From contig OX459101.1 in NCBI GenBank assembly GCA_949775045.1, positions 10,009,101 to 10,073,100 on the forward strand: 64,000 nt of DNA. Reading direction: 5' to 3'. The notes under the pieces are model-generated. The model ran no database searches and had not been told where the DNA came from. It saw only the letters and a list, made by a program, of their open reading frames with translations. Source of the stretch: Metridium senile. Lineage: Eukaryota > Cnidaria > Anthozoa > Actiniaria > Metridiidae. This document shows positions 1-55,075 of this stretch, piece after piece. A program made the position numbers and the translations under genes. The stretch's first letter is position 1, and each line of letters opens with the position of its first letter.

Positions 1-278
1 TGACGATCTTTGGTGCAAAATGCTAAAAAAAGACCAAAATTACGATTTTTGTGGCATATGCCCAAAAATGGTCTAAAGGTACGATATTAATTTGGCGGGT
101 TATAGTCCATGCAACACGCTCAAAAATGGCCCCAAATGACAATTTTTGGTGTATTATAGCCTATGCAAAATGCTGAAACGCGTGACCCAAAATAATGCTT
201 TTGCAAAATGCTCAAAAATGGCCCAAAAATGACGCTTTTAATTTGGTGAAGATTGTCTATGAATTTTTATTTTCTTAC

Positions 279-623
279 CTTGGAAGTGTCATCTTTCGTT
301 GTCATATTACAAAACGTGTAGTTTTCCTTGTTCATCATTTTTACTGAAGTGTTGAAAGGAAATCCATTGAGTTCGCAAACTGAGTTCCTTCCGGAACTAG
401 TTTGAAATTGAAACGACTCACATCGACAATCATGTGCACATTTACTGAAACATGCTGCTGGATTTGGGTTGGGAAAGTCCTTAAATATCTTGACTACGTT
501 ACCACTTAATGCTCTACCCTTAATACAATCTTTATCAAAGAAGAGTTTAAAGCAACTATGTATCTGTACATGGCCGAATAAGAACAGAAGGAGTAGAGCA
601 TTATGTGCAAAGTTGCCCAACAT
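279..623 (-). CDS. Secreted PAN/apple-domain protein, first coding exon (partial gene)
   Basis: This is the first coding exon of a gene that continues beyond the left edge. Translation starts at the ATG at 623-621; the frame is open a few codons further upstream but has no ATG there. The exon gives exactly 115 codons and ends in AAG followed by a consensus donor (GTAAGAA from 278). Residues 1-23 form a signal peptide with a Leu/Phe core. The rest has the cysteine spacing of a PAN/apple fold, including CFSKC and CRC followed by an aromatic SFQF strand, plus N-glycosylation sites (NTS, NYT, NMT). PAN domains bind protein or carbohydrate outside the cell and in cnidarians often sit at the N-terminus of longer secreted proteins. 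The later exons are not visible, so the full product cannot be named. Confidence 0.6.
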
Positions 624-879
624 TGTGCAAAATGGCAAAGATTACCGTAGGTTCGTTTTAAGAAGTGTTTATATTGATCCTTGAATGTGTTCTATTTGAG
701 TAAACAATTGCAAACTACGCTCTTTCCAAGAAAGAAAACTGGTTTCATTGGCGCCGTGTTTGTAAGAAGTGTCAAAGTTATTGACATTTTTCGTCGATAC
801 TATGTAACACTAAATAAAGCAAATTAAACATGTAGATTATAGGTCATTAGAGTTTTTGATGCCAGTATAATTTCTTTGA

Positions 880-17375: not shown

Positions 17376-17754
17376 GTCAATTAAATGATATTTTATTCTT
17401 TCCCACCTACATTTTCGATCACTTTCTGATTGGCCATGTCCGTTACTTTAATTTTCCCGCTTCATATTCATACTCGGTATCTCGCATTTCACCTTGTCCC
17501 TCATAAAATATCTACACGTATTACGTGGAATGTAACAAATATAATTTATCTATGTTTTTCTTCTAGATCAAATATTGTAAACTAAAAAGACTGATGGGCT
17601 GATGGATGACGATCACCACAAAACAACTGGGTAGCCATCAATTTGATGTGAATACCACCCAATAAAACGTTTGCTATAATGACATCACTTGAACAACTGC
17701 TCCTCCATAACATGGAATAATAACAAAGCTTTGATATAATAGACAATTGCAAGT
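17376..17754 (+). promoter_or_regulatory. 5' flank of the TPR-CHAT gene
   Basis: Unique sequence between array unit D and the start codon. A pyrimidine-rich run with TTCTTCTAG at 17558-17566 could be the 3' splice site of a 5'-UTR intron, in which case the promoter would lie inside or beyond the array. TATA-like AT-rich stretches are present, but none can be singled out. Confidence 0.25.
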
Positions 17755-20700: not shown

Positions 20701-21360
20701 CCAGACGACTACCACAGCAAGAAAGGCGCTTTGGTAATCGGGAATCCTCTTGTTGGTGAAGTCATGTTTCGTGGAGAAAAGGAAACGTTTTCAAGCATAC
20801 CAAATGCAGAGATGGAAGCTAGGGTGGTCAGTTCAATTCTTGGTGTCTCACCATTTATAGGGATTGATGCCACTAAAGACGCAGTCAAAGAAAAACTCCA
20901 ACAAGATGCAGCTGTCATCCACATTGCAGCTCATGGTGACGATATCACTGGAGAAATAGCTTTAGCGCCAGGAATTTCTACACAACCCAAAGCCATCCCA
21001 GAGGAGAAAGACTACATCTTGACTATGCAGGAAGTCCAAGAAATTGGGGTGTGCGCCAAGCTTGTGGTTTTGAGTTGCTGTCACAGTGGCCGTGGAGAAA
21101 TCCGGGCTGAAGGAGTAGTAGGTATGGCTCGTGCTTTTCTAGCAGCAGGAGTCCGTGCTGTGGTAGCATCATTATGGGCCATCGATGACGAAGCCACAAT
21201 GGATTTTATGGCAGGTTTCTATATGCATCTAAGAAAAGGTATGAGTGCAAGTGTGAGCCTGAATGAATCCATGAAAGAGCTGATACGAGAAAAGAAATAC
21301 AGCCACCCAAAGTACTGGGCTCCATTCGTTCTTATTGGAGATGACGTCACTATTTTTTAA
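17755..21360 (+). CDS. TPR-CHAT protein (TTC28-like), caspase-fold peptidase
   Basis: A single open exon of 1201 codons. Residues ~5-700 are TPR repeats; the first five or six (about 17880-18460) are nearly identical, built on [15 protein letters not shown], which points to recent internal duplication or homogenisation. A Ser-rich linker at ~880-905 leads to a C-terminal CHAT domain (~930-1201) with [17 protein letters not shown], the His motif HIAAHGD (H1060) and the Cys motif [12 protein letters not shown], where C1109 aligns with the Cys of the usual LSAC motif. CHAT is a caspase/separase-fold cysteine peptidase domain. TPRs normally bind partner proteins, so this is probably a cytosolic protein-sensing or scaffold-coupled protease. 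The overall architecture matches animal TTC28-like proteins. The two catalytic residues are intact, so it may be active; substrates are unknown. The start ATG is the first in frame, with A at -3. It sits directly beside the 2.27-kb array. Confidence 0.9.
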
Positions 21361-34641: not shown

Positions 34642-37025
34642 ATATATACATTTCTGCTGAAAGCTCATTTTATTCCAATATTGCGCTCCGGCAAATATAG
34701 TTGAGAGGCTAGTTGAACACGGTGCGCGCAGAAAACTTTACCATGTTGAAAAAGGTGCGCTGGCTTGATTCGCGTGCTGTCTTTGTTTGTAGTAAAATTT
34801 AGTGTATTGAAAACGCTACCAAAGAACCACATTTATTATAATAAAACTTTGTTACCTTAACATATTTCTTATCTTTATTTTATAGATTATTAGCAAAGCA
34901 AGCGAACGTAATGCTACCAGCTGATTGGTGGAGCTGCTAGTTTCCATGGCATCGCCTACGCACGTGGAAACAATTTGACCGCTGTACAAATAACGATTTT
35001 CATTTATTTTGTGGGTGATAATTAATCCGGAAAAAACAGTATTTTTAATTTGATTTTTAAATGGTCTGTCTTAAATTATTGTAGAGGATTAAGCAGTTAG
35101 CTTATAAGAGAAAGAAAGTGAATAATTGTAATCAAAGAAAATTGGAGAAATTTGGTATCGAAAGTTTTATTTGTCTGGAAATGTCATTTTTTTCAAGTAT
35201 TTTTTCGACAGAACTTGCCATTTATTATTTCCTTTCGTAAGTAAGTGTTTACATTTCATAATTTAGTTTTCGCTATATTATATGTAATCATAACAATCGA
35301 AAAAGTACAATGATAAAATAGATGTCGACTCTTAAAATACAATTCCTCATCAAAGAACCCAACCTTTACGATATTTAAAAAACCGTATATTTATTTTCGA
35401 TGTAATAATTGCTTAAGTCGTCTCTGGTGAACAATATTCGGATTACTTTAATTTGCAAACGGATAGAAAGGTTTAACTTTTCACGTGTTTTGTAAAATGC
35501 AAATGTTGATAATAGGAGGTGGGCAGTGGACTATCAGCTTCACAAACATTCTGCAACTTGTACTATACAGCTTGGCGGTTGGTGACATTAGCCCAAACGA
35601 AAACTTTGTGTTGTAAAAACAGCTACTGACTTAATTGGTAAATATACCTTTCATTGCAAGGGAAAGAGAACAGAAACCACTTAATTGAAAATATAATATC
35701 TCTTTCTTAGGCAAAATTTTCATCACTAAGTCGTTGTCGGTGATCAATCAGTTCCAAATATATTTAAATATATATAAATATAAATATATATAACGCGTAA
35801 TTTAGAAAATGTGAATCTTTCTCAAGTCACTACTTCACCGTCTTCTGTTTGGTTAAAGCTGCATTGTCGATAATTGGCCGTCAAACTAATTCGGCTTATA
35901 TAGTGAAAAGCAATTCCAAAAAACGCGTAGTTTGATATTTACAGCAAGAAAATGTGAATCTTTCTCAAGTAACCACTTTGCTGTCTTCTGTTCCGGGTTA
36001 AAGCTGCGTTATCGATAATTGGCCGTCAACTAGTGCGGCTTAATTGCGATGGTGTTTCTTGGTTAGCAACTGGAGTAAAAAGGCAACCCAAGTAAAACAG
36101 TACCGGTGTTTCTACTGACATTACGTACAAATAGATGGCGTTTTTATATTGACGTTTTGGACGCTATTCTCAAGATAAACATCGGTAATTAAATTACTAA
36201 CGACGTTTCGTGGTCAGAATTAGAATCGTATAGATATCGGTAACACTGGCAGTTAGTCCATCGCGGTACACGGAAATATATTATGGTAAATAATAACGTT
36301 TCAAACGTTCGATGAATGCATGTGAACAACTTAATGTGAACAACGCTAGTGACCTGTGTCGACGTTATAGTCTTTTGTCGGACGCTTATGCTGGGAAAAA
36401 ACTTACTGACGCTTCACTTGTTCTCTTCTTGGCCGATCAACTGATTTAAAAAAGACGTAAAAATAGTGGGTTTTATTTATGTTTCGGACATTGGTCTCCG
36501 TCTGAGTAGAACGTAAACACAGTAAAAACATTGGTACTTACTGAGGTTTAGGACGTCAGATTTTTATTGCTGATGATACTTAATATAGGAGTTCATCGAC
36601 ACTGAATGGGAACAGTAAAGTTAATAACTTCGTGTACAAATAGGAGAAGATTGAGAAAGCAACTGTAAGTTATTGAAACCACCTCCGACAAGAGTTTACA
36701 CATTCAGTATCAAAATCAAGAAATATCAAAATCGATGATAGGAGCTCATCATATCAAAAGTCAGTGGGTGAGTTGATGCGAACACCGACATTACTATCAA
36801 GAACTATTAAAAATTGTAAAATACCAAAAGCATTATTGCTGACTCAGTTTAAAGATTAGCACCAATGGTACCTTGGAAGCTAGAAGATGAAATACATCAC
36901 TTGATCTAGTCTTTGTATTTATCGGCATTGGTACGTCTGTGTTCGTTAACTTCATTTCTCTTTGCTCCACAGACCGTCAGCTTTACAAACGCTAAAGCAA
37001 GTAACTTCGTACACACTGTACACCA
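34642..37025. other. Intergenic stretch and 5' region of GPCR 2
   Basis: No gene is seen. A 90-bp segment is duplicated about 142 bp apart (35810-35900 and 35952-36042; shared GTGAATCTTTCTCAAGT and GATAATTGGCCGTCAA). The first ~100 bp repeat part of the preceding element. Pyrimidine tracts followed by CAG near 36965 could mark a 5'-UTR intron of GPCR 2, but this is not demonstrable. Confidence 0.4.
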
Positions 37026-38300
37026 ATGGATAACTCAACGATATATTCAGCTACCAACACCAACCAAACAGAGCCTGATTTCAAGCGCTTTCAGATTCAA
37101 AACTTTGACATTATATTTGGTGTTCTGTACGGGATAATAGTCTCCCTTGGACTAGTTGGGAACGTACTAGTAGTTGCTGTGGTAAAGAAAACTAGTTCGA
37201 TGCAAACGACAACGAATTTTCTTCTCGTCAATTTGGCGTTATCAGATATTATAGCCCTTCTATGGAATCCAAGAACGTACAGTTTTGCTTTCTATCCTAT
37301 CCACCCAAAGGGAACCTTGGGTGATTATATATGTAAAATATTCACAGGGAATGCTATCATAAGCGTTGCCATAGCTGCGTCTGTATTTACTCTATCGACA
37401 GTAGCAGTAGAGAGATATCATGCTCTGGTGAAACCAATGAAAGCTACAAAATTGAGAATCCAACCTGAATATGTCAAGTATGTTATTGCAGTGATATGGG
37501 TTCTAGCATTGTTGATAAACTTGCCAGATTTTATTGTGGTGCGTTATGATGTTCACTATCGTCGCTGTATATGTCCATACAGCCTGGAGGCTGTCACAGG
37601 ACTCAAAGTGCATGTTTTATGCACTGTCATGTTCGTAGGGGTCCTGCCTTTCATCATCATCGGGTTTTCGTATCTTCAAATTATTAGAGGTATATTTTTT
37701 CAGGGTACGATTATTGGGCAAAGCCAGGGCGAGGAAGATGAAAAGTCAAAGAAAAAACTTGCGAAGTTATTAATATCAGTGACTATGGCGTTTTACTTGT
37801 GTTACCTTCCTTACGGTATAGTCATCTCGTTTCTCGCTCTTTCCCATAGAAAAACTTTAATAAAGAATCAAAATTCGTATATCATTATTCTTAAAGTTGT
37901 CGAGTTCTTGGTGACCTGCTCTTCTTTCCTAAACCCTATTCTCTACGCTTTCCAGAGCTCAAACTACCGGGAAGGGTTCATCAAAATCTGTCGGCTTAAT
38001 AAAGAACCTAAAGTTGTACTCAACAAGAGAGGTTTCGCAGAGGATCACGAACGGTTGTCAGTGTTGAACGGAACGCAATTTTTTGGACGGAATTCGTTTG
38101 GTTTGAACCGAGTAAGCGTAGTTAGTGACGTCACTTTATTGGAGCAAAATTATCAAACGATCGCCGCAAGTAATGTGAGCTTTCAGATTGAAGAAAACGA
38201 GAAACGATTATCAGCACCAAATGGAATACATTGCCATAAAGATGTCAGAAGTAAAGATCACAGAAGAAGCAACGCATGGTTAGAAAAGGAAATTGAATAG
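37026..38300 (+). CDS. Class A (rhodopsin-like) GPCR 2, neuropeptide-receptor type
   Basis: One uninterrupted frame of 424 residues; the ATG has A at -3 and G at +4. The N-terminus has NST and NQT glycosylation sites and no signal peptide, normal for class A. TM1 is IIVSLGLVGNVLVVAVV, TM2 has NLALSDI, TM3 starts at the conserved Cys (YICKIFTGN) and ends in ERY, TM4 has the Trp, ECL2 has RCICPY, TM6 has CYLPYG and TM7 has NPILYAF. The C-terminal tail of about 100 residues is Ser/Asn-rich and could take kinase phosphorylation. It is clearly paralogous to GPCR 1 throughout, including the Tyr in place of Trp in TM6, but lacks the TM1 intron. It signals at the plasma membrane through G proteins; the ligand is unknown. 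Confidence 0.92.
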   Translation: MDNSTIYSATNTNQTEPDFKRFQIQNFDIIFGVLYGIIVSLGLVGNVLVVAVVKKTSSMQTTTNFLLVNLALSDIIALLWNPRTYSFAFYPIHPKGTLGDYICKIFTGNAIISVAIAASVFTLSTVAVERYHALVKPMKATKLRIQPEYVKYVIAVIWVLALLINLPDFIVVRYDVHYRRCICPYSLEAVTGLKVHVLCTVMFVGVLPFIIIGFSYLQIIRGIFFQGTIIGQSQGEEDEKSKKKLAKLLISVTMAFYLCYLPYGIVISFLALSHRKTLIKNQNSYIIILKVVEFLVTCSSFLNPILYAFQSSNYREGFIKICRLNKEPKVVLNKRGFAEDHERLSVLNGTQFFGRNSFGLNRVSVVSDVTLLEQNYQTIAASNVSFQIEENEKRLSAPNGIHCHKDVRSKDHRRSNAWLEKEIE

Positions 38301-40415: not shown

Positions 40416-41134
40416 TCATTTTTGTTCGGGTTTAAAGTAAATCAGTTTTGAGAGAGATGATTTATATTCGCAAACCTGGCGCTTTCCGGTTTTCATAACA
40501 TCGTTGTGTACCTTAGTCAACATTCTCGCAATATCCGTATTAATGTAATTCTCTTGAAACACTGTACACAAATTTTGGATAAAATGTGAGCCATCCATTT
40601 TGTGTCGCGTTGCTTTTTGTCCTTTCGAACATGCATAGGCTATCAGTGTTTCTCGCAAACTAGCGTCATCCGGGGGAGTTGAATCTGGAATCCCTTGTCC
40701 CTCAGTACTGCTTCCTGCAGCTTCCATGCTTGGGGGAGGTACGACGCGACATGCTTCGAAAAAAAATAGTTTTGGTTTTCCACTAAATTTAGCGCTCTTT
40801 TGAACTATGCTTGTTATTTGCTGTTCCTTGATCTTCTTACATTCAGTGTCGGCAACACTGTCTAACTCTCCATGACTCATAACGCATACAGCGCAACAGT
40901 CATATTCAGTAGCCTCTCCTACTATTGTCTCCAAATCAGCTAGTACTTCTTCTCTTGTCTTATCACGGATTTGTTTAAGTTGAAAATTGAAAGTTTTGCA
41001 GAATGTGTTTACAAGTGCGTCGACATCTTTCTCGGAGCCTTTTCGTTGTTTATCATCATCAGCTATGGTGTATCTTATTATTTCAATAGTAATAAACACA
41101 CCATTCTTTAGGACAAAAGCATCAGTGTCGAGAC
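40416..41134 (-). CDS. Exon 10 of the NLR-caspase gene: caspase p20-p10 and stop
   Basis: The p20 part has GVFITIEIIRYT, RKGSEKDVDALVNTF (Arg of the Asp pocket), the catalytic His in VMSHGELD (H1400) and the catalytic Cys in FFFEACRV (C1441). A 30-residue linker holds several Asp (GIPDSTPPDDAS) where inter-subunit cleavage could occur. The p10 part has LIAYACSKG, then R1489 aligning with the P1-pocket Arg of the SWR motif, then DGSHFIQNLC. The canonical QACRG is EACRV, so Gln to Glu and Gly to Val changes flank the active Cys. Both catalytic residues are present. Confidence 0.85.
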
Positions 41135-44100
41135 CTAAAAAATCAAATTCAAATTTTACAACACTTGTATGAATTCTCGCGCGCTGATTGGTTGATTTAC
41201 CGTTGTAAATAAGAGGACAGACACACTGTGCTTACGTCATCATGTCACACAACACTCGTGCGGAATTGAGGGAAAGCAGTGTCATCGACACAAAACCTTT
41301 TCACCAAAAAGATTTTAAAAACAAGTTTATGGATAAACCATAATGGAAATTACTTTTCTGTAAGTAGCAAATTGTAATAAATGTAACTATGCTGTCATGG
41401 AGTTGTTGTCGTTTTATAATGTTATGCGTTTTTTCAGTCTTTTCGACAAATCTTCACTTACAATCAATTCTGTAGTCTTTTCAACAAAAACGTGCTCCAA
41501 ATTACATTTTTGACGAACAATACCATTCGTTCAGGACTGATTTGAAAAGCTTAGAATGCTGTACAAAGGTTAGACATATTAGGTATTGATATGCGGTGAT
41601 GTCGCATATCAATCGTTATTATATCCACACTCACTAGATATGAGCAATCTCGCGCTCTGATTGGCTCCCTACTACTAGGCTCATACGACTCGTTGGCTAT
41701 CAGCTCATGTCGATTTCGTGGAATAACTGTTAAATATGCTCGTTCGATTCTGATACATCGATATATCACCAACGCGTGCGAAAATGCCGTACGCGTGCCC
41801 TACCCATGAAGTAATCTATATATATGATCAGTTTTAATGTATATTTTTTTTAAAGGATGAAACCTGAACCCAGCTAATCGGCCGTGTTTGATGTTCTTGT
41901 ACTTTTACTTTTTTAACTTCACTTAAAAAATTCATGAATAATTAATGAGACATTTGTTGTATATCCTGATTTGCATAAGTTTTAACTGGTAATTTTACGG
42001 CAAAATTTATTTTAATCTTGAAAATTTTGGTAAAATATGAAAGAGCTAACCTAGACATTTTTTAAGTCGTTTACAACATTCGCGTCCGTGTTGTATCGGC
42101 GATGCAATCGCGCGCCTTCGGCTTGCGATTGTATCTGCCGATACAACACAACCGCTCATGTTGTAAACATTACTTAGCAGTCTCTCAAGACAAACAGTTT
42201 ACTGAATTTCTGTATAAAAATAAGCTTATTTGTTTTGTTTTTCCGGTTGAAAATAGATCATTTTCGTAAATTGTGTGATTTCCCGTATCTTGAAGAGACA
42301 ATTTTCAGTTCGATGCCTGACAAATTCGTCATTTTTCGTCCGTTAACTGACATTTTACTTTTTGTACATTTATTTGGGTTTGTGTTGTAAAAACAAAAAA
42401 ACAAATCGAATGTGGTTTAGCGTTGTATGTACTCTTATCGACAACGATATTCGTCATGACAGTGGTCAAAATGACGCGTCGTGAGTCCACAACATTTTGA
42501 CCACTGTCATGACGAATATCGTTGTCGATAAGAGTACAGACAACGCTAAACCACATTCGATTTGCTAATGTTACGTGTGTCTTCCTTTTAGACACTATCT
42601 TACCTTGAGTTTCTTTTTCATTATCCTCACAGTACACAGTCAGTTTCCCAATATGGTTCCCAGTTTTGTCCTTCGTGGGATAAAACTCTATGACGAGATC
42701 GTCTTCAGTACAACCATCTTTTTTCACTTCCAACTCTTTAAAGCAAGGTATATTTTCATTGAACCTTGAAAACAAGATCATGTTGGTGATACTATTCGTT
42801 CAATACCGGCATTGAATTAAAATATGGAGACCAATTGCAATTTAAGTAGCTAGCATAAAAAGCATGAAAAGTCGCATTTACAGAGCTTTACGAAACGCGT
42901 TTTTATGCGTAAAGATCTAAAAAAATATACGCACCATTACGCATGTCTGTAAAGATAGCGTTAAGATCGTAAAGACGCGTTAAGTGACGTTTTTATGCGT
43001 AAAGATCTCAAACAATATACGCACCATTACGCGAGTCTGTAAAGATAGCTTTAAGATCGTAAAGACGCGTTAAGTGACGTTTTTAAACGTAAAGTTTTAA
43101 AAAGTATACGCACCTTAACGCGTGTACCGTTTCTAAACGTAAAGTTTAAAAAAAAAGATTAATCCACAGTAAATGATGTGCAAAGCACACTTTATTGGAT
43201 TAAAGTTATTCACTATCTATAAAATATACTTTGAATATAAATCACAAAAGATAATGCAAGTAAAATCAAATTGTATATGTTGCAACCGTATCAAAGCTCG
43301 TGTATTAACGTTAACGATAAGTTAAAACTCAGTCATTCTGAAAACGTAGACATTATCACTTTGGCGCATTTGTCTTAACAAACGGCGATATTAATATATT
43401 ATATGTATCTTGAAACACGAATTGGTGTATTCGTACTTATATATTTCAACGAACATTATATATCGTTCTGCTATTTGTGGGCTAGATCAATCTACCAATA
43501 GGATATCAGTATTTTGTGGTCGAAAGTCCATTGAATAATCACGCGCGAGTATTCAGGTTGTGCCAAATTTGAATAATCCGCTTGGGCAAGCGTTTAGACA
43601 ACAACAGATTTTAGGCGCTTGGTAAAGGTTATTTTTCTATTCTAAATAAGCACATTTAGTTATTCTAATTATCGTTAGTCGTATACAGAAGCTGTTTAGC
43701 ATAAGAACAGTCAAAAGGGAAGAGCTAAATCTATGATTTAAGCGCTGTACTGGAAGGATATGAACACTCAAGGCCGATAACAAGGAGAACAAGACCGGGA
43801 ACAAGACAACGGAGCGAAAGATTACCAAGGCAAAGTTAAAATTGGCCGTAACTAGGATAAATGACTAGGTCACATACTAAATAAGAAGACTGATTAATAG
43901 AAGGTTTACATTACTTCTTTCTAGTGTTTGAATGGTTATTTAGACTTGGTTATAACTTGTTCGATAATACATTGCCGTTAAATGCTATGAAAATACCGCA
44001 AAAAAGTAGCTTTGTTTTAACACGGTTTTATGTCCAGTAAATTGTATGTTTCACCAGGAATTGCTTCGTGTTTATAAAATATAACTTGTATAAGACACGG

Positions 44101-47100
44101 GTGAGTTGCTGAGATGATATTTGAATGTTTTAATACCAATTTAGAAACGATTTAGACAAAAGAAAACTGCAAATAATGCTGCATCAAAAAAAACACTAGT
44201 TTTTACAGAATATAATTTATTATTTACATAGCTATATTTATAATATTCTAATTTTACTACAGTATATAATTATATAGGTATAGAGCAAATGCAGTTAAAC
44301 CATGAAATGCAATCTAAGAAAGTACTAACAAATAGAGTATTACAACCAAAAGAGTAATACACAAGACACCTCATTATTCTTTGTTTTATTATTTATTCTG
44401 GGTGAACTGTAGCAACAATTAGTCACTAAATAGTGACCATTTGTGATAATTTACTTATAAAAATATTATTTCATGGTTTAACTGCATTTGCTCTAGTATT
44501 AAATTTGCAACTTGTTACTTTGTATATTACTGTATATATTATAAGACATTTTTAATAAATATTTGAAATTTAAAATAATTGGTATTGGGCATGTTATATG
44601 GTTATTGTAGTGCGCATTTACATGCTGCGTTGTTTTTGTGGATTAATTAGGCAATATTGTCGACATCTATTGCGTTTTCATCGAATTTATTCAATCGTTC
44701 TCATTGACTTTTACGCAATCATTTATATATCGTTTTCTTGCGTTTTTATGGCCAGTACACAATCTTTACGATATCGTTTCCCGCGTTTTTATTGCAAGTA
44801 CGCTGACTTCGATTTGTTTTTTTTTTTAACCATCAATAAGCGAAAAACAACTAAAAAAAAGTTTGAAAAAACCGTTTAATCCGCTCGCGCACAGTTGTCG
44901 TGAGCACAGGCAGGTCTGGACTGTAATCGACAATGGCTCTCAGCCAATCAGCGTGCGAGAAATTTACAAGTTATGTTAAAAAATCATTTCGACAGCGTTT
45001 TCTCGCGTATGTTTTGCATTTACAACATTTATCCGACAACGTTTTAACGCGTAAATAATGGATATACGTTCTATACGAAGACGTTTTTGGGCTTATATAT
45101 CATATTTACGGCATATATACGCCAGGCGTAAAGACCGTATATTCTAGATGTACAATATTTACGACTAGGCGTAAAGACAGCGTAAAGACGAAATATACGT
45201 CACTGTAAAGATGGTCGTAAATGCGCGTATATGTCTTCTTTACGGCATCTTTACATCATCATTACGGCTGCGTAAATTTGACTTTTCATGCTGTCTCGCA
45301 TACACTAATTAGTTGAATGATATATCGCTTGTTTAATAGATAACCTGGATTCGGATTGTGATATGGGATTGAGCAACAAACTATGGGTGTGGGCGGGTCA
45401 GGAAATACACATGATTTCATAATCAAAACTTACGTAAGCATTTTGTCTTCTTTGCATATGAACCCCCCTTGTGCTTTTGTATAGGCTGAAGTATTTGGAT
45501 ACATGACGATATCTCCTGTATCTCGCGCTACTTCTTCGTGCTGTGGTTCAACTAAAGGAAATGTTGTAAAAAAAAGAAATTTGAATAAAGATGGCGTCGG
45601 TAGAAAAGATTGAACTTACAGCAAGTCTCAATAATCTGGGTGGGTGGGTGGGTGAGTTGTCGGTCCGTTGTTAGCAATCTTTAATACTATTACCTTTCAC
45701 GTTTCTCACATCGTGGGCCATCACCAAGAGAATTTTAAAGAAATCTTTATGGGATTTGAGGTTCTTGAACTCAGTGTACGCTAAAAAATTCACTTGTTTG
45801 GGTCCAGATGTCAACAGATTGTAGAAAGGATGGACATAAGACATTACTACTGCTGCTACCTCACTCCATATTATCCAAAACCTTAAAAACACAAAATAAT
45901 ATCACTAATAAGTATTAGAACGATTTCGCATAAGCTGCTTTATTAATGCAAATGAGTGTGTGAGGTAAAATAGTATGCTAATGAGGTGGAAACTCGTGGA
46001 TGCAAGATAAATAAATGATCGCAAATAAAGTGAACACTGAAGTTACACGTTTATCAGATTTATTTGATGGATTTAATACGAATAACAAGAATTTTATAGT
46101 ACTTTTAGTTCTGAGTTCATACAGCTTCTTTGACGAACCGTGACATGTTTAGAGAGTAGAGAATTAAATACATGTATTTCTCTAGCATTTGTCCGTTAGC
46201 TTACAAAATAACAAAACAGAAACGAGATATGTACTATATTTATGACTAACTTAAACAAATACAAATAGCCAAGGAAAAAAACCCTGATAGAACATGAGCT
46301 AATACATGAATTAGCTTATTTGCTATTGTTAATTTGTGATTGTACGCTTGTAAGTAAAAGATTAACGCGTTCCATCGTTTCCATAGCCTTGGTACACATT
46401 TCTTTGTGCGATTCCTGTGCTTCTCTGGCTACCTCTCGGTCAGTTTTCCTCTTCTTATTCTTTGGCTCAGACGTTTCTAAGTCATCTGAATCACTATCTG
46501 AGCTGGGCAAGGTGAATTCATCAGCTAGCTTACTTCTAGTCTGTCTTTCAGCTGGAGTTCCCTTAGCGGCATATTGCATTAGCGGCATTTGGTTGCCTTG
46601 TTGTATGAGTTTGGAGGTGGATGTAGACGGCGCAGAAGAACTGGCTAGTTGTTTCTTTAAAACGTTCTTTATTCTGTTTATTGTGCGTTGTCCCGGGGCC
46701 TCTAAGTATATTTGCACGACTCTTTGAGGCAGTCCTTTGTCAATAACACGCTGTCGTACAATGGCTAAGACCTCCTTCCATCCCTTTTCCATCGCAAAAT
46801 TTTGGCACTCTAGCACGAACTGTCTTTCATTTTCTCCGATGTTGAATCTCCGTCCCATGTCTGTCGAGAACACGTGTAAAGATTCATAGTTTTATAAATA
46901 GGCTTATTTTTAAGCATTTATCGTACTAAATTAATTCAATTAAAAAACTGACTAACTCAAATATTGAATTCTTACCTTCAGCGCTGATAGTTTGGTTACT
47001 AGCCATTAAACGGAAAGAATATAGAACTAAAAGGAGCACGAGATGGCAGTTATTGCAATAGACTGTGAGAAGAAATGCACGCAAAAATGTGAAAGCCCGT

Positions 47101-50100
47101 GCTAATTTCTTATGAGTACAATCAAAACTTTTGCATAAATTATTCAAGTTTCGCACGTGTAATAAAGCATGGATTTGTTACAACTACGTGCCGTTTTGAT
47201 AGAAATGTTATCTTTTTTGCTACTTTTAGTGGCTATGCAACCACCACCTCAAGTCATGCACTGTAGTACTTTACAGCAGCGTTTACTACCGGGTTTTCAC
47301 GGCCATCAGTTTCAAGGACGAGACGTATTTGCGCAAGTTTCTGCACAATCTTGGTTATTCTGAAAAAACACCGGCGAGACTAGAGAATCATTTTTGCAAC
47401 TAGTGGCAGATACATCCCAAGCATTGTTTGCTCTTAATATTTATGGACATCAACGGCAACGAATTCGACGACAAATGTTGAGTTTACACAATCAGATCTT
47501 ACTTGTTCTTATGTGGCTGAGAAAATACCCACACGTGGATACCCTTGCACTTATGTTTGACATCGACCCGACAAGTATCACGAGAATCGTTTACAAAATC
47601 ATACCTCGGCTGTGGCGATACTTCCACAATCAGATCAGGTGGCCAAATAATGCTGAATGGGCTTATTTAATGGGCAATTGGTCCGAGTTCCCAAATGTTG
47701 TGGGCGCCATCGACAGCACCCCACACGAAATATACAGACCTTTAACTGAGCCTCAACGACCCTTCTACAATGGACATCGTCACTACCACTGCTTCAATAC
47801 GCAATTAATTATAGATAACAACGGACATTTGCGCTTTGTACAGGCTGTTTTTTTTTTTGAAAGCACCCACGATGCGACATCATATCGCCTAATGACACCG
47901 ATAGGACCTGGACATCCTTTAAGCCTTCCGAACAGGGCAAAAATACTTGCTGATAAAGCTTATCCTGGCGCCCATCTCCTTCTTACGGCAGTCAGAGCTC
48001 AACAAATGCGAGGATTAAATAGGAGAGACAGAAGGCGAGCTCGTCGATTTAACCGTTACACCGTTACTTATCACGTAGGAGAATAAAAGTTGAACACGTT
48101 TTCAAGGAAATGAAAACATACCGGGCTATCTCAAGCATTTGGAGACATCCGCGGTGGCTTATGCCCGTCTGTATTGAACTAGCAGCGTTCCTGGCCGAAA
48201 GACGTGTTAGACTTTTTGAAAACATTTAAGTTAGTCATAAATATAGTACATATCTCGTTTTTGTTTTGTTATTAAGTAAGCTAACGAACAAATGTTAGAG
48301 AAATACATGTATTTAACTCTCTACCCTCTGAATGTGTTGTTCGTCAATGAAGCTATAAACTCAGGACTAAAAATACCATACTTGTTATTTGTATCTTTAA
48401 ATTCGTCAAATAAAGCTGATTAACGTGCGATCATTTGTTTATCTTGCATCCACGAGTTTCCACTTCATTAGCATGCTATTTTACCTCACATACTCATTTG
48501 CATTAAACAAGCAGCTTACGCGAAATCGTTCTATTGTGACACAAATGATGACATCAATATCTTGGCTAGCAAACATCACATTAGGGTTTTTTATTTTGGC
48601 CTGTTGGCTGGCTGGTTGGTTGGCAAGCTACTTGGTTAGTGGGTTAATGTTAGCGAGTTGTTTGGTTGATGTTATAACACAAAATAACATCACTTAAAAG
48701 TATTGTGCAAAGAATGATGATATTAATGTGCACTGGATGGAAGTGATGACAAACCACTAGAATCACAAAGGCAGCACCTTCTTAGTATTGGTCCGGCCGG
48801 GACGCGAACCCCTACCCTCCAGGTACTGTAGTCCGTCACTTAATCAACTAAGCCATCTGGTCGACGGATAATCCTTGAAAATATGTAGCTAGCTCAATTA
48901 ATGCTGTCGCTAAGAAAAAAAAAGCTTTTTAAAAGGCTAATCATGAGACCGAAAAAGATCTTGGGATATATCCCATTAAAGCAACATGGCAAGTGAAACA
49001 TTCAAGTGAACGTGCGTTTGCAAGTGTTGAAAACAGACATTAGGCATGCATCTTGAACACTCATGAAAGACTTAAAATCCCCTGACCTCTTTCGGTTAAG
49101 ATAAGGTTTTTCAGCGATAGTTTTAATTGAATAAGCCATACGTTACAATGCAGAAGACACAATCTTTAACATATTAAACAGAGTCAACTCATTAAAATAT
49201 ACATACTTGGAAAAGTGCCTCACTCGAAGCTCTATCGTTGATGTGCCTTCAACGTATTCTACTGTTTCACTAATGTCCTTCCACTCTTCACCTTCGTGGC
49301 GCAGCACATGAATTTGTCCCGCAACCCTTTCATGTCCCGCGGGACAAATAGCCGGATTAGGTAAAGTTAATTGAACTACTTCAGGGAAAGCTGTTTGTTC
49401 AAAGCCATCGACTACGACTATTGGAGAAAACTGCACGTTCGGTATGTCCATTGGCATTACATCAGGCATTGGAAGGACCTAAAAATTGAAAATAAAAGTT
49501 ATATATAATCAATTAAATTGTATGCTACAGAACAGCATACAGTGAAGTAAGTTAAAAGTAACACAAGTACGCAAGTACGTAAATAAGCAAGTAAGTAAGT
49601 ATGTATATTTATGAAAACAATTTTGTTTTGTACGAACCCTCAACGATCCTTTTGTCGATTTGTCTACAGCTCCTGCAGGAAATCGGAGTGTGACGTCATG
49701 ACACACCGACGATCCGACTACACACCCACTGACCGGGACCTCAAATGTATCCGTGATGAGCCTGGTAACTACTGTTAACGCAGTCAGTTTGGTCAGCTGC
49801 ACTTGTACGCTTAATGTAGAGTTGTTTGAAGGGGAAGTTTCTTTTATTTCTAGAAAGAAATTAAAACAAAAAGATGACTGAAAATATAGTGGTTTATTTG
49901 ACAAATTTAACTTGAAAGAAGACGAAGAGTTTTATAAAATAATATGAAATAATTATATTGAAATGAAATACGGCATAAAGGTAATTGTAGTTTTTGCACT
50001 TTAAGCTCTGTTTCTTTATTTTCAATGGTTTCTATATTTCTCCCTTTCATTTTTCTTTTCTTTTCAATATTTTTAACTCTGTTTTCATGAGCTCATAAAA

Positions 50101-50669
50101 TAATTGATCAGTATTTTGCCGAGAACAATAAAGACAAATAGTTTTAAAAATCAAGTGAATAAACAAACAAACAAACAAAAACAAAATACTAACTTGGCAA
50201 AAAAATGGAAGGAAAAGAAACAAACATAAAAGTAAATAGAAAACTAATCAAGCAAATAAATGAAAATGAAAACAAATACACACCTTCCACTTTTTCCCAT
50301 GTGTTTGTACTCTCGTTGAAAACCATAGCAACGTTTACATAGTGAGCTGTTCGTGTAGGGCCATTATCCTGATGCAACAGTGTGGCAACAACTGGCTTTT
50401 CAAAAACCAAATTAGCCGGCTCGAATTGAATTATAGAGCTAACAACACCATCCAGTTCCCTAGCAGGGGAGGGTAAGGTATCTTTGGACAACTGTTTAAC
50501 TGTTAAGTTAGTTTTCTCGTTTATTGCATCAGGAAGAACTAGAAGGTGTAGACCAGCACTTGAGAAATCATAGGACCCGCCAATTTCATTTCTGCATTCA
50601 GAAAAAGAATTCCATTTTTCAACTATACATTTTTAGGGAAAAAAAGCTGTTGGACAACCAAACAAACTG

Positions 50670-50724
<55 letters not shown>

Positions 50725-53700
50725 ACAGAAACAAAAAAACATGGTAAAGGAGACGACATGTCAGATCAAACAAATAGCTGTATACATCATTGGCATTGGT
50801 GGATTTTTTAGCAAAAAGGGTTATGTGACCTAGCTAACATGCATCGTAAACGTATATTATATTATATTATATCTTGAGTTGATTCATACTCACTGAATTC
50901 AAAACCTTTGAATCTGTACAACTTCTGGACAATTTCTTTAAGCTAAAAACTTTCCAATTATCCACTCAAAGGTTGATTTAAACTGATTGATGGATCAGAA
51001 AAACTGACTCAAATTCAAAATGAAACTCACCCTGTTCTGGTCGCGATGCAAATATTTCGGTTATGAAGGCCTTAGTTGAATTTTATCAATCATGTCAGGC
51101 CAGTCAGTATGTTAGAACAATATATATTGTGTTGACCATATGAAAGCTATCAAAAACTAAACCACTTACAAGGATAGTGTTTGCTCTTGTTGATGTTGTT
51201 CCTGTTGTGGTAATTGTAGTTCAAGAAACTGTTTTTTGGGTTGATATTGCCAGTCATGCAACTTTTCGACTTCTAGTTGCTGTTGATCGTGCTTTTGATA
51301 TCTCTAAAGAAATAACATACATTATTATATAATTATCAATGAAATTTCTTTATTTCAAACATTTGATATTTTCACATGGCAGGGATGGCTTTTGAGGGGT
51401 TGAAATCAGCAATTTGCTACTGTTAAGGACGGGGCCTACTATTGCACTGCGCAGGCTAATGCACATCTACATAATTTTCCATTTTAACGCGCTATCTTAC
51501 CTCTAAAGATGACAAAATACAAATAAAAAAACATCTAACGATGGTAGACGCGACGGTAGCGGTTTTTTTATAAAAACAGTCCCACAATGCACTTATGATG
51601 ACGAATTTCTTTACTTAGTAGGGAGGGGACCGGAAAGAAATTGTCTTATGATGATCTTCGGCGGCAAAGTTTACCACGCGATAACTTTTTAAAACGCCCG
51701 GAAACCCCAATTTTCTTACAACTGCAATTATTAAGAAAATGTTAAAAAATGGTTTTGATGTAAAATTTCGAAAAAGCAACTGATTTTTGAATGAAAAATG
51801 GACAAAAATTCGAATTTTCTGAACCTCGTAAAATACAAGTCGCGATGCTAAAAAAATCATATTGCACTACTAACTTTTGAAAAAAAGTTAAAAAATATAT
51901 ATTCCTATTAGAAAATTACTTGTTGATTCTCAGTTACCTCTATCAAAGAGATGTTCCAATGAAAATCCTTTTTGCCATCAGGCAAGTGTGTATGCATAGA
52001 AAATACATTTTGTGACAAGTGGAATATTCATAGTATGTCACGAGGAAACATAGCATGATATAAAATAGAGAACTTTCAAAGTCTCATGTGAAGAGGCAGT
52101 TGAGTACCGCCGAATATACAACGGATTTCAAGCATTCTGATTGGCTGTATTTTATATGATGTGGGATAAATGAGAATTCCACATGATAAATTTTAAAAAT
52201 CATTTCTAACCTCCTGCAGTTCTTTTATCTTTTCCAGTGCTTCCAGTCTGTCACAAATTTCCCCTACCATAAGACTTTGGTTTTCTTTTGGTAATAACTT
52301 ATCCATTTGGAACGCATCTTCATAGTTCAGTATTGCATCATGGACGTCTGCTTTCGATTGATTTATCATTCCAATGAGATAAAGAATTCTTACAGTTTCA
52401 GGATGAACACCAAGAAGTGTATTTCTAAGTTCGTAACATTTTTTAGCACAAACCAGTGCTTCGTCATACCTTGCAAGCACGATAAGACTATTTGCCAAGT
52501 TTCTGTTAAAAGTTGCAGTGCTGAGTGTATCATCTAAACCGAGGTCTTCATTCAATTTTATGGCTTCCTTCAAATGTGAAACTGCTTTTTCATAATAATC
52601 TTTTTGCTTTTCCTTTTTCTTGTCCCCAAGTTTTTGATAAGCTTGAGAGAGCTGGTTATAAAATGTAGGAAATTCGATGTGTTTTTTACTCTCATAGGTC
52701 AGTGTCAACTTCATTTCCAGTGCCTGCGTGTAGAACCCTTTTGCTTCTTCAGGATGTCCAAGTTCCATGTTGCAATTACCAATGCCGTTTAGTGTCTTGA
52801 CCGTCATGATATGGTCCCCATAGATCTTCTGATGGATTTCCAATGCATTTTTATAACATTGGTGGGCCTTCTTCAGCATGCGCAACTGAGACTTTGCATC
52901 TTGACCTCTATTTGAATAAACACTTTGCATGTAGTTTAGCTCCCCTTTACAGTAAGGAAGTAAACCTTTGACAGCAGTAAACAACTTCCCTTCAGGTTTG
53001 TGGGAATCACTGTGATCCTGAAAGCGTTGTTCAGCACGATTTACTATTATCTTTGATGGCCCTATCTCTTCCATGTCGGATATCTGAATAGTTTCCCAGC
53101 ATCGTATATAAGTACTAGTTAGGAGGTCTCCTTGAGAACAAATTAGAGTAACATCAAATTATGAAAAATATACATAAAAAATAATCAAATACTGGAGAGA
53201 GATAAAATGAAGATGATGATGCATGAGATTGATGATGACATGATGATGTATTTAACGATGATGATGATGGTGACGATTATAGTGATAAGGACACATGATT
53301 ATGTAAATAATAGTGGTGATCAAGATGATGATTATTCATAATGATGATAATGATAATACATGATGGTGGTGGTGACGATGTACTTTAATATACACTGCAA
53401 CAAACTACATTAAATATAAATGTAAATGAACATAATGATAGCTAGTGGTACCTTTTTTCTCTAAAGCATCTGCCCAGGTCTTGAATAATGCCTTCCTTTC
53501 CTTGATGGTCTTTAAAAATTCTAGTAGTATTGTAACACGGAGAATTCTTTCTTGAGACCGAATGAGTTTTTCAAAAATTTCTTCTTCGCGTAAAGTTAAT
53601 TGAAGTGCAACTTCAAAATTGAATTTCTCTTTCTGAATTTCTTGAGACTTCCCTGCAAAATCTTTGTCTAACTTATCAGCCAGTAAAAGCAGTTTTTCAA

Positions 53701-55075
53701 CAAAATGGTGGCCAAACATCAATTCTGCTCTAGTATACGCTTCCTCGTATTCTGTGAACTTCACTTTCAGGTAAGATGCTGCAAATTCTTTAAACAAACT
53801 GTGAACGTCGTATTCTGTTTTCCCCTCATTAGTCACAACTTTTGTAATCACCCGATGATTGGTTAGGTACTCCAGATCTAACTCACCATCATAATCTGAT
53901 TTCAACTCAGCAATTTTTTTTGTTTCCGATGCAGAAAAATACTTTGGGAAAACGCAAACTTTTACAGCAAGTTTCTTAAGGTTGTCTGTTGGAATTGACT
54001 GGAATATAGCTCCACTTATGAGATACTTATCCGTTACTCCCATCTCTTTCTGTGTCTCAATCGTCTGTAAAAGTTGAACTGGAGTTAAAAAGCCATTTCT
54101 CAACATTTGCTCTGCACCCTCAAGAAAGAAGGGGATGTTCTGGCAGTGTTCAGCAATTCTGGACAGTGCTGCGTCTTCATCAACCTCAGTGAAAGCTTCA
54201 CCGTACAAATCAAGCTTTGACCTTCTATAAATGAACTCCTTAGAGGCTGGAATCGGTAGTGGTTGAACGCAATGATTTTTGATTGAGCTAACAGGAATTT
54301 CAAACAATGAGGTGAGGATAATTTTGAGCATTCCATTTTTGCACGCCTCTGATTCAGTAAGGGCATTAAGGAATCTGTAAAATTCATCTTTGTAGCCTTT
54401 AATGATCTTGGCCTCGACATTATCAAAGAGTAAGAACATTTTTGACTTCGTGCACCTTTTGCTCAAGCATTCTAATATTTGATTTCTTTCCACTTTACGA
54501 AGGCAATTCTCGTCTTCAGTTTCATTGACCTCGTTTCTATTGTCAACAGGCCGGCCTAACTGATAAAGTATGTACAAATACGCAGTGTCAATATCTTTCA
54601 CTTCCCTCAAGTCAAAAGTTAACTCTTTACAGGAATCTTTTGCAAACTCTTTGACAATTTCCTTAGCAATTGTGGTTTTTCCAACTCCTGAAATCCCGTG
54701 CAGATTTATTCCATGGATATTTTGGTCAGATAATAACTTGAGGAGCTCTTGTTTATCATTGCTGCGACCAACAAAAGCTTCATTCCTCGAAGGCAGTGAT
54801 CGTTGGAAGTTATCGAGGGAAGATAATATTTTCTTTTGGTTTTGAGATTGCTTAGCAGTAATTTTAAGTAGACCGAGATCATCTTCAGTGATTTTGCCAC
54901 TTCGAAACAGTTCAAGTAATGTCCCCAATAAATCAACCTCTTTGAGAGAATTGGGATCGTGATGCCGTTCTTTTAAACCAGCGAGAATTATTGCTGCTTC
55001 ATCTTCGTTCAAGCTCTCAGTGAAATTTCTAAACTCCTTATCTAACGCAGGAGATATCTGCACAACTGGTGGCAT
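40416..55075 (-). CDS. NLR-like receptor fused to a caspase: DED-like, NB-ARC, TPR, ZU5, ZU5, UPA, caspase (10 exons)
   Basis: The exons, in transcript order, are 55075-53452, 53130-52211, 51303-51170, 50591-50284, 49849-49638, 49478-49207, 45881-45694, 45551-45434, 42764-42604 and 41134-40416. Every intron has GT and AG borders and every junction keeps the frame (phases 1,0,2,1,0,2,1,2,1), giving 1551 residues and one stop. The start is the first in-frame ATG (CACGATGC, A at -3). The order is DED-like 1-85, NB-ARC plus winged helix ~90-440, TPRs ~550-848, Gln-rich linker ~849-892, ZU5 ~895-1000, ZU5 ~1040-1156, UPA ~1157-1305, caspase 1312-1551. ZU5-UPA occurs in PIDD, UNC5, ankyrin and the FIIND of NLRP1/CARD8. 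NB-ARC ATPases such as Apaf-1 oligomerise to activate separate caspases; here receptor and protease are one chain. The inferred role is a ligand- or damage-triggered death or immune protease. The splice model is from sequence only, without transcripts. An alternative is two adjacent genes, but no internal stop or promoter supports that. Confidence 0.85.
41154..42564. mobile_element. Palindrome-bearing DNA element, copy A, filling intron 9
   Basis: The left end reads TTTTACAACACTTGTATGAA; the right end is a near-perfect 165-bp palindrome (42400-42564) with arms starting CAAATCGAATGTGGTTTAGC. Relatives are at 57031-57975 (opposite strand) and 61816-62770 (same strand), sharing the 5' block with CGCGCGCTGATTGGTT, an internal block with AATCGGCC.TGTTTGA, and a terminal hairpin. 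Copy A also contains two younger insertions: a palindrome near 41595-41810 and one at about 41930-42175. There is no ORF, so it is non-autonomous. Only 19 bp at one end and 39 bp at the other of the 1469-bp intron lie outside it. Confidence 0.65.
42070..42175. repeat. Palindromic repeat with CTTCGGCTT centre
   Basis: Arms TGTTGTATCGGCGATGCAAT and ATTGTATCTGCCGATACAAC flank a CGCGCGCCTTCGGCTTGCG loop, with outer TTTACAACAT/ATGTTGTAAA. An interrupted relative lies at 2740-2790 plus 3093-3130. It is a small insertion in copy A of the larger element. Confidence 0.5.
42604..45881 (-). CDS. Exons 7-9 of the NLR-caspase gene: UPA domain
   Basis: Exon 7 (45881-45694) continues the HFS motif with KFWIIWSEVAAVV and PKQVNFLAYTEFKNL, the typical opening of UPA (FS..W, then VNFLAY). 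Exons 8 (45551-45434) and 9 (42764-42604) carry GGFICKEDKMLTFNENIPCF and DDLVIEFYPTKDKTGNHIGK plus LTVYCE, consistent with the second half of UPA. The three small exons are separated by introns almost filled by transposons. The UPA passes straight into the caspase with no DD or CARD between. Confidence 0.8.
42861..45292. mobile_element. 2.43-kb inverted-repeat element filling intron 8, CGTAAAGA-rich ends
   Basis: Terminal inverted repeats AGCATGAAAAGTCGCATTTA (42861) and its near-complement ending TTTTCATGCT (45292). The subterminal 250-300 bp on both sides are full of CGTAAAGA/TTTACG motifs. On the left a 104-bp unit containing ATATACGCACCATTACGC is repeated in tandem (about 42890-43150). 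The centre is A/T-rich without a credible ORF; the frame at 44598-44879 is low complexity. It makes up about 91% of the 2669-bp intron. Confidence 0.6.
46316..47006 (-). CDS. Harbinger accessory (putative DNA-binding) protein, exons 47006-46976 and 46860-46316
   Basis: The short first exon (MASNQTISAE) joins the second across a 115-bp intron (GAAG|GTAAGA ... GACAG|AC) in phase, giving 191 residues. Residues 11-85 are helical and basic (DMGRRFNIGENERQFVLECQ, then KGLPQRVVQIYLEAPGQRT and RIKNVLKKQL), followed by an acidic Ser/Asp stretch (PSSDSDSDDLETSEP), a nuclear-localisation-like KNKKRKTD and a helical C-terminus. Harbinger elements carry a second gene whose Myb/SANT-like product brings the transposase to the TIRs and nucleus. 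This one fits by position, though its fold is not an obvious SANT match. The frame is intact, unlike the transposase. Confidence 0.65.
47230..48229 (+). pseudogene. PIF/Harbinger DDE transposase, frame-broken
   Basis: The main frame (47394-48086) holds the DDE_Tnp_4 core: helix-turn-helix region TLALMFDIDPTSITRIVYK, first Asp in VVGAIDSTPHEI, STHDATSYRLM and second Asp in KILADKAYPGA. The third acidic residue lies in KVEHVFKEMK, in the -1 frame after a stop at 48084-48086; that frame runs to a stop at 48227-48229. Upstream, DETYLRKFLHNLGYSEK lies in yet another frame, with a shift near the A-run at 47363-47370. Two single-base breaks beside homopolymers make it a recent pseudogene or an assembly artefact. 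Confidence 0.82.
48779..48862 (-). repeat. tRNA-like sequence, probable SINE head, in intron 6
   Basis: On the minus strand, A box TGGCTTAGTTGATTAAG and B box GGTTCGCGTCCC are at tRNA spacing and the T arm pairs (GGGGTTCGCGTCCC). The 5' half-acceptor does not pair properly with the 3' end, so a functional tRNA is unlikely. It lies between the Harbinger element and exon 6 of the NLR-caspase gene. Confidence 0.5.
49207..51303 (-). CDS. Exons 3-6 of the NLR-caspase gene: Gln-rich linker and two ZU5 domains
   Basis: Exon 3 (51303-51170) is a 44-residue Gln/Glu-rich linker (QQQLEVEKLHDW, PQQEQHQQEQ). Exon 4 (50591-50284) and the start of exon 5 form ZU5 number one: IGGSYDFSSAGLHLLVLPDA, FEPANLVFEKPVVATL and NTWEKVE. 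Exons 5 and 6 form ZU5 number two: CHDVTLRFPAGAV, FPEVVQLTLP and EEWKDISETV, closing with LRVRHFS. ZU5-1 lacks the closing His-Phe-Ser and reads VQLTKL at the matching place. The two-ZU5 order is that of PIDD. Confidence 0.82.
50671..50723. repeat. (CAA)n microsatellite, about 17 copies
   Basis: Pure ACA/CAA triplets in intron 3 of the NLR-caspase gene (read as TTG on the gene strand). It lies about 80 bp upstream of the exon 4 acceptor. Confidence 0.95.
52211..53130 (-). CDS. Exon 2 of the NLR-caspase gene: TPR region
   Basis: The exon starts after TTCTCAAG and opens with GDLLTSTYIRCWETIQ, upstream of the first ATG seen in the frame, so it is internal and not the start of a separate gene. 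It holds four or more TPRs of the kinesin-light-chain/NPHP3 type, for example AHQCYKNALEIHQKIYGDH, GNCNMELGHPEEAKGFYTQA, YDEALVCAKKCYELRNTLLG and HDAILNYEDAFQMDK. In this position they would replace the WD40 or LRR sensor of other NB-ARC/NLR proteins. It ends QEV with the donor at GAG|GTTAGA. Confidence 0.85.
53195..53385. repeat. Imperfect (GATGAT)n tract in intron 1
   Basis: GAT/GATGAT-rich sequence filling most of the 321-bp intron 1 of the NLR-caspase gene (53451-53131). No coding content. Confidence 0.8.
53452..55075 (-). CDS. Exon 1 of the NLR-caspase gene: DED-like and NB-ARC
   Basis: Residues 1-85 resemble a death-effector domain: helix with SLNEDEAAII, then DLLGTLLELFRSGKITEDDL and GLLK, matching the usual DLL..LE..G.l.e.nL.lLk pattern. 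The NTPase follows, with P-loop GISGVGKTT (K133), Walker B MFLLFDNVE (D218), a sensor-like KIILTS, a degenerate GLPL (NIPFFLE) and a winged-helix MHD counterpart reading DVHSLFKEFA (H425). These are NB-ARC-type (AP-ATPase) and not NACHT-type features. The exon ends in GAGAAAAAAG before GTACCA, a weak donor. DED versus another death-fold domain is the least certain part. Confidence 0.82.

Follow-up and report, generated by a model that had tools for sequence, protein, structure and literature searches.

A predicted Metridium senile receptor combining a PIDD-like ZU5-ZU5-UPA module with a C-terminal caspase domain

The gene model and its domains

The window analysed here is a stretch of 64,000 nucleotides from the sea anemone Metridium senile (C7:10009101-10073100), and its minus strand carries a predicted gene of ten exons (55075-40416) whose product would be a single chain of 1551 amino acids (aa) with the order DED-like, NB-ARC, TPR, ZU5, ZU5, UPA and caspase (Table 1). 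The ten in-frame exons of the original prediction could be rebuilt, with GT-AG introns at all nine junctions (9/9), a start codon at 55075 and a stop codon ending at 40416. Moving splice sites by up to 14 nt gave 24 in-frame models of 1537-1553 aa, so the fine exon boundaries are not unique. The join of exons 2 and 3 is the least certain, two paralogous copies (c4 and c5, see below) having a candidate donor 27 nt further on. Codon log-odds trained on three open reading frames (ORFs) of the window failed to separate the exon frames.

Table 1. Features of the predicted gene, in window coordinates. Articles cited by PMC number, here and in the text, were available as titles, abstract openings and open-access passages, supplements excluded.
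Feature	Position	Strand	Basis
Exon 1, aa 1-541: DED-like helices (~9-93), NB-ARC	53452..55075	-	Pfam, model, copies
Exon 2, aa 542-848: helical linker and TPR repeats	52211..53130	-	TPR_12
Exon 3, aa 849-893: Q-rich linker	51170..51303	-	gene model and copies
Exon 4: first ZU5	50284..50591	-	Pfam ZU5
Exon 5: end of first ZU5 (ZU5a), start of second	49638..49849	-	profile comparison, copies
Exon 6: second ZU5, HFS at end (H1154 F1155 S1156)	49207..49478	-	hhalign against ankyrin ZU5B
HF/S codons, predicted self-cleavage site	49209..49217	-	motif likeness to PIDD/Nup98/CARD8 (PMC3210808)
Exon 7: UPA part 1	45694..45881	-	profile and copies
Exon 8: UPA part 2 (EVARDTGDIVMYPN)	45434..45551	-	profile and copies
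Exon 9: UPA end, by position alone	42604..42764	-	open, alignable in other copies
Exon 10: caspase, aa 1313-1551	40416..41134	-	Pfam C14, PDB caspases, five-copy alignment
Harbinger-like transposon, intron 6	45916..48533		inverted repeats, DDE_Tnp_4 ORF
2.4-kb element, intron 8	42861..45292		inverted ends, arms 42861-42886 and 45267-45292

In the N-terminal half, NB-ARC (aa 107-220; 25.3 bits against a cut-off of 23.5, E 1e-5) and TPR_12 (E 4e-21) both exceed the curated Pfam cut-offs. The residues that had been read as an Apaf-1/NLR-type switch are all in place, namely the P-loop GISGVGKTT (K133), Walker B LLFDNVE (D218) and winged-helix DVH (H425), and the P-loop, Walker B and winged-helix histidine were found in all six copies of exon 1 in the genome. 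The sensor-1 arginine, a residue with a functional role in NB-ARC proteins, was not found: four of the six copies read IILTSL (aa 252-257), the other two left the pattern unmatched, and the sensor-1-like place is occupied by Leu in the window gene versus Arg (LLTSR) in a relative from the coral Montipora capricornis. LRR is absent among the 25 of 26 Pfam families listed for the protein. Neither these listed families nor separate pieces searched at E up to 10 gave a Pfam match to DED. When the first 101 residues were modelled together with the Montipora relative, AF2 returned five helices (pLDDT 71), and the five top PDB matches of this model are caspase-8/cFLIP DED structures (Foldseek probability 0.63-0.95, E 0.57-1.1); 0 of its 146 Foldseek matches reach E 0.001. 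The model is thus suggestive of a DED-like N-terminal end. An AF2 model of the entire exon 1 was poor (pLDDT 54), and its Foldseek list was not used.

The first ZU5 (aa 893-966) lies above the curated Pfam cut-off (E 7e-8). The second ZU5 and UPA gave no Pfam match within the same scope. A phmmer search of the PDB with UPA alone yielded no match; approximately aa 1020-1250 aligned with ankyrin ZU5B-UPA chains (best E 7e-5). By hhalign with a single sequence, the second ZU5 matches ankyrin ZU5B at 91% with a score of 43.8 (the top of 30 shuffles was 16.1). When the second ZU5 and UPA are joined, the alignment continues into UPA and scores 51.8, a value reached by 0/120 UPA-shuffled versions, one of which came to 50.9. 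A profile of seven copies raises the match of second ZU5 (ZU5b) plus UPA to 97% (E 3e-10), with 27.7 for UPA alone against a top of 21.7 among 200 column shuffles. Of the ZU5-ZU5-UPA module originally claimed, the first ZU5 therefore stands by Pfam and the second ZU5 and the start of UPA by profile, and the end of UPA is assigned by position. Of the domain types that the original reading proposed to check with a profile library, C14, TPR, NB-ARC and the first ZU5 came out above their Pfam cut-offs, and DED, the second ZU5 and UPA were unmatched.

At the border between the second ZU5 and UPA, six of seven copies read HFS (H1154-F1155-S1156 in the window gene). The exception, c3, reads HFF and has no detected caspase exon. 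The aligned ankyrin sequence at this position is VSARFW. HFS occurs in PIDD and Nup98 and SFS in CARD8, and in UNC5b the Phe is replaced by Leu-677 (D'Osualdo 2011, PMC3210808).

The caspase domain is the strongest match of the C-terminal part (C14, aa 1333-1545; 113.5 bits against a cut-off of 21.4, E 1.6e-32). Its nearest solved caspase in the PDB is 6wi4, a structure of coral origin. Both catalytic residues that had been claimed are in place, H1400 and C1441 (FFFEACR), as are the predicted S1 arginines R1343 and R1489; the roles given to these four residues are presumed from caspases in general, and all four are retained in the five copies aligned with a caspase-3 chain (5/5). The motif around the catalytic Cys reads FFFEACR in the window gene, FFFETCR in c6 and FFQACR in c2, c5 and cF. 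Exon 10 has no ATG upstream of the catalytic MSHG, so exon 10 alone cannot start a caspase. The predicted enzyme could be an initiator rather than an executioner.

Copies, siblings and a coral relative

An exon-by-exon tblastn survey of the 389-Mb assembly revealed five copies on one strand at C7 10.049-10.130 Mb, the window gene being c1. Two of the five (c1 and c5) have all ten exons and three of the five have the caspase exon. In c5 the exons run from E1 to E10 in order, and the caspase, whose linker is longer, reads as a single open frame; the repetition of the ten-exon order in a second copy is more than chance. Exons 1-9 are present in c4 (exon 9 read from frames), exons 3-10 in c2, and a broken exon 1 plus exons 3-9 in c3. 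Exon 1 is 79-87% identical in c5 and c4 and 58% identical at C7:14.64 Mb, exon 2 is 60-66% identical in c5 and c4, and exon 4 is 84-88% identical across c2-c6 and cF. For most splice sites the copies differ by no more than 9 nt in position; the exon-2 and exon-9 donors deviate further. Exon 9 of c2-c5 ends in phase 0 rather than phase 1. The resulting mismatch between exons 9 and 10 in c2 and c5 was considered as counter-evidence and was resolved by a mini-exon that lies ahead of the caspase exon and corresponds by homology to the last part of c1 exon 9; it restores the phase, and the joined frames are open.

Outside the array, copy c6 on C11 carries exons 4-10 at 71-85% identity. Upstream of it (C11:4115637-4129128, plus strand), ORFs match Roc above the cut-off of 27 (28.1 and 31.7 bits) and COR-A below its cut-off of 35.3 (26.1); from their order and strand, we infer that these Roc/COR-like ORFs and the c6 block form one gene. 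Copy cF (C3) has exons 4-10 plus the mini-exon, and tblastn with the window exons detected no NB-ARC or TPR in the 10 kb upstream. The caspase exon could be placed 17 times in the genome; 11 of these placements form nine loci (47-100% identity; the other six reach at most 32%); two of the nine carry internal stops, and the locus counts are lower bounds. In the stretches examined, ZU5 and UPA exons precede the caspase exon at five of the seven intact loci; the locus at C3:1.75 Mb has UPA exons 8-9, and that at C3:16.00 Mb only a piece resembling the mini-exon. Separately, C1:3976911-4712082 (minus strand) holds an array of long caspase-domain frames, with 20 C14 matches on one strand within 0.74 Mb and open frames of 333-1081 aa (18/20 of at least 593 aa; three with internal stops).

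Divergence among the copies was compared at non-synonymous (dN) and synonymous (dS) sites. Between c1 and c6, dN/dS is 0.58 in the ZU5 exons, which look constrained; in UPA exons 7-9 dN is 0.11 and dS 0.02 (2 synonymous changes over 89 sites, 37 non-synonymous over 367; Fisher p 0.018, one of four tests, uncorrected); and in the caspase dN/dS is 1.05 (p 0.89), with p 0.16 for UPA and caspase combined. For c1 against c2, c4 or c5, dS rises from 0.11-0.28 in exons 1-6 to 0.42-0.52 in UPA plus caspase, which suggests a C-terminal block of greater age or less homogenisation. Neutral mutation of exon 10 to the observed divergence left it free of stops in 44/2000 simulations for c1-c6 and 0/2000 for c1-c2.

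More distant sibling receptors occur at two further loci on the same contig. At C7:14.64-14.66 Mb and C7:8.71-8.76 Mb the order is NB-ARC, TPR, ZU5, ZU5 and then UPA-like ORFs (assigned by eye), and in both loci a death-domain-like ORF follows. Pfam Death is the top match for all four death-domain-like ORFs (19.9-21.9 bits against a cut-off of 22.6, E 2e-4 to 8e-4); one of them, searched against the PDB, had no significant match, and the single ORF that lies between the UPA-like and death-domain-like ORFs in each locus has no Pfam match (2/2). The slot after UPA thus holds either a caspase or a death-domain-like module in one genome, which strengthens the earlier idea of a caspase in place of a death domain. 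The cleavage position reads RFCG or QFCG in 4/4 sibling ORFs, not HFS; the siblings have Cys where Ser would be the nucleophile.

The closest protein outside the genome is M. capricornis P0002 (1292 aa; E 2e-45, 26% identity over aa 4-827), found in a full-length search with words drawn from the first 500 residues. Its last 108 residues match ZU5 (24.4 bits, cut-off 21), a family not among the 25 of 44 listed in a scan of the whole protein, and the deposited sequence ends inside this ZU5, without UPA or caspase. The NB-ARC/TPR half and ZU5 thus lie on one chain in a coral. Together with the ten-exon paralogue c5, this chain strengthens the original reading of the exons as a single gene. The full-length search gave six matches at E up to 10, five of which are TPR proteins (best E 3.5e-3) with neither PF00656 (C14) nor PF00791 (ZU5) in their listed Pfam domains. 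The query aa 850-1551 had one match, a bird protein containing DED and C14 that spans 27% of it, and with aa 1395-1545 none of 64 candidates passed E 0.01, a cut-off too strict for 5.8 billion sequences. All these protein searches required shared exact 5-residue words and scored a limited number of candidates, and their failure to find the fusion elsewhere is therefore weak evidence.

A receptor with its own caspase output

As a gene model the architecture holds, and it occurs repeatedly in this genome. Like the gene structure, the motifs and the outputs of the siblings, it can be read from the sequence itself. The working steps and the direction of the domain swap are what we infer from them. 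With a probability of about 0.6, we propose that the window gene encodes a PIDD/FIIND-like STAND receptor whose output would be its own C-terminal caspase, with a working self-cleavage and release and an origin by substitution of a caspase for a death domain. The DED-like/NB-ARC/TPR part would sense a trigger and oligomerise. Self-cleavage by the second ZU5 would fall between F1155 and S1156, with the two parts still held together by ZU5-UPA contacts, and the UPA-caspase fragment (S1156-K1551, 396 aa) would be freed on the trigger or on removal of the N-terminal part. Pairing of UPA with UPA would then join the caspase domains, leading to dimerisation, cutting of the inter-subunit linker and cleavage of substrates after Asp. 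By analogy with PIDD and NLRP1, this course of release is likely, and the caspase most likely replaced the death domain of a DED-NBARC-TPR-ZU5-ZU5-UPA-DD receptor (DD, death domain).

Each half of the predicted protein resembles known systems. PIDD1 is laid out as LRR-ZU5-ZU5-UPA-DD and forms the core of the caspase-2 PIDDosome. The window protein has DED-like/NB-ARC/TPR in place of the LRR and a caspase in place of the death domain, and shares with PIDD1 the tandem ZU5, UPA, the HFS motif and an output on a caspase (PMC3210808, PMC3482391). In the FIIND of NLRP1 and CARD8 (ZU5-UPA-CARD), a cut between F and S frees the C-terminal UPA fragment (PMC8081665, PMC9700037, PMC3210808), and oligomerisation of UPA is hindered by ZU5 until the N-terminal part is removed (PMC8081665); the window protein likewise has ZU5-UPA with a predicted F/S site. 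NLRP1 and CARD8 have one ZU5, a CARD that recruits a separate caspase-1 and a NACHT-LRR or disordered N-terminus, whereas the window protein has two ZU5 and a caspase. The N-terminal half is like the NB-ARC (Apaf-1-like) proteins with DED or TPR of Nematostella, amphioxus, sea urchin and corals, with which ZU5-UPA or caspase are not described in the available passages (PMC2246300, PMC4083563). Nematostella NB-ARC proteins carry DED, TPR replaces WD40 in those of sea urchin, amphioxus and Nematostella (PMC2246300), and coral NACHT/NB-ARC proteins occur with DED and with TPR (PMC4083563). Placozoan NACHT/NB-ARC proteins carry repeats of the WD40 or TPR type along with CARD, death-like or death domains, ZU5 being absent from the main text of that study (PMC6321704). 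Cnidarians have ZU5 together with NACHT (PMC8260672), as do sponges, for which an NLR figure legend also names CASc (PMC12909245), and FIIND and UPA-ZU5 are fused to TRADD-N (PMC8195603). Caspase-X of Acropora is likewise a coral caspase of unusual layout; it has tandem inactive and active caspase domains, and the terms NB-ARC and ZU5 are absent from its main text (PMC4715348). In the open-access literature covered, by title, abstract opening or passage, no protein with NB-ARC, ZU5-UPA and caspase together is described, and neither there nor in the protein searches was one of this exact order found, as had been supposed. PIDD1, NLRP1 and CARD8 recruit a separate caspase via a death-fold adaptor domain, while here the release module is joined directly to the caspase. 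If true, this would be a natural fusion, probably of an early-branching animal lineage, linking ZU5-UPA self-cleavage to caspase activation, and a compact system for asking whether UPA alone switches on a caspase.

Several observations weigh against the proposed receptor. UPA alone from the window copy scored 13.5 by hhalign, with shuffles up to 20.3, and the seven-copy match spans only about the first 75 columns (exons 7-8), so that exon 9 is assigned to UPA by position only. The UPA of NLRP1/CARD8 gave no signal (15.4, column shuffles reaching 18.2-19.1). NLRP1 has the catalytic set H1186, E1195 and S1213 (PMC9700037); H1127, tried as the counterpart of its catalytic His, is kept in only 4/7 copies and was dropped. 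In the caspase, EA rather than the usual QA precedes the catalytic Cys, and the dN/dS near 1 fits rapid change but also relaxed constraint. No caspase exon was detected in c3 and c4. Finally, tblastn found no NB-ARC/TPR upstream of c2, cF and the C3:1.75 and C3:16.00 Mb loci in the stretches examined; the link between the block and this sensor is therefore not constant.

The best-surviving alternative, which we consider unlikely, is a single chain without release, in which ZU5-ZU5-UPA would be a scaffold as in ankyrin or UNC5b and an NB-ARC ring would activate the caspase by proximity, as an apoptosome in cis. Sequence comparison does place ankyrin nearest to the second ZU5 plus UPA, and the poor conservation of H1127 is in keeping with a scaffold; HFS at the border in most copies, as opposed to the ankyrin and UNC5b residues given above, counts against it. 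Less probable again, the exons would belong to two genes or transcripts, one for an NB-ARC-TPR receptor and the other for a ZU5-ZU5-UPA-caspase protein. In favour of this reading, no NB-ARC/TPR was detected with the block in c2 and cF, and in c6 the block follows Roc/COR-like ORFs. Against it, the NB-ARC/TPR half and ZU5 belong to one chain in the Montipora protein, and NB-ARC, TPR and ZU5 are colinear in c1, c4, c5 and the siblings at C7:14.64 and 8.73 Mb. We see slightly less room still for a decaying or decoy copy lacking protease function. The EAC in place of QAC, the caspase dN/dS against c6, the transposons in introns 6 and 8 and the broken copies in the genome could all be expected of such a copy, yet the ten exons are intact, the catalytic residues and S1 arginines are kept, and the frame is open despite 12-31% nucleotide divergence. 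A short separate caspase (~300 aa, MILFSRFNEN...) is very improbable. Its ATG, immediately ahead of exon 9, is in frame in c1 and c6, but c2, c3, c4 and c5 have a TGA between that point and exon 9, closing an unspliced start there to them, while their exons 7-9 are open.

We hold it an even chance that ZU5-ZU5-UPA-caspase is a recombining output block, a "one-molecule PIDDosome" that would sit behind NB-ARC-TPR or Roc-COR sensors, that would have arisen by a death-domain-to-caspase swap and whose UPA and caspase would change faster than its ZU5 domains. Faster change of UPA and caspase would perhaps avoid cross-activation among paralogues, or be driven by attack from inhibitors.

Insertions and neighbouring genes

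The Harbinger-like transposon sits between the HFS exon and the UPA exons. It has a DDE_Tnp_4 ORF at 47364-48086 (plus strand), a small ORF at 46316-46891 (minus strand) and ends that are 94% complementary, and it accounts for most of the 3325-bp intron 6, the c6 counterpart of which is 1644 bp. The counterpart of intron 8 in c6 is 642 bp. Intron 9 holds a 72-nt inverted repeat (99%, 42402-42564). Rfam (gathering thresholds) and ARAGORN gave no match in the window. Elsewhere in the window, an intronless frame of 1205 aa at 17743-21360 (plus strand) combines TPR repeats with CHAT (E 5e-60), another caspase-like protease domain. A PAN-like ORF at 267-641 (minus strand) falls just below the Pfam cut-off, and two rhodopsin-type GPCR frames lie at 30578-31681 and 37005-38300 (plus strand).

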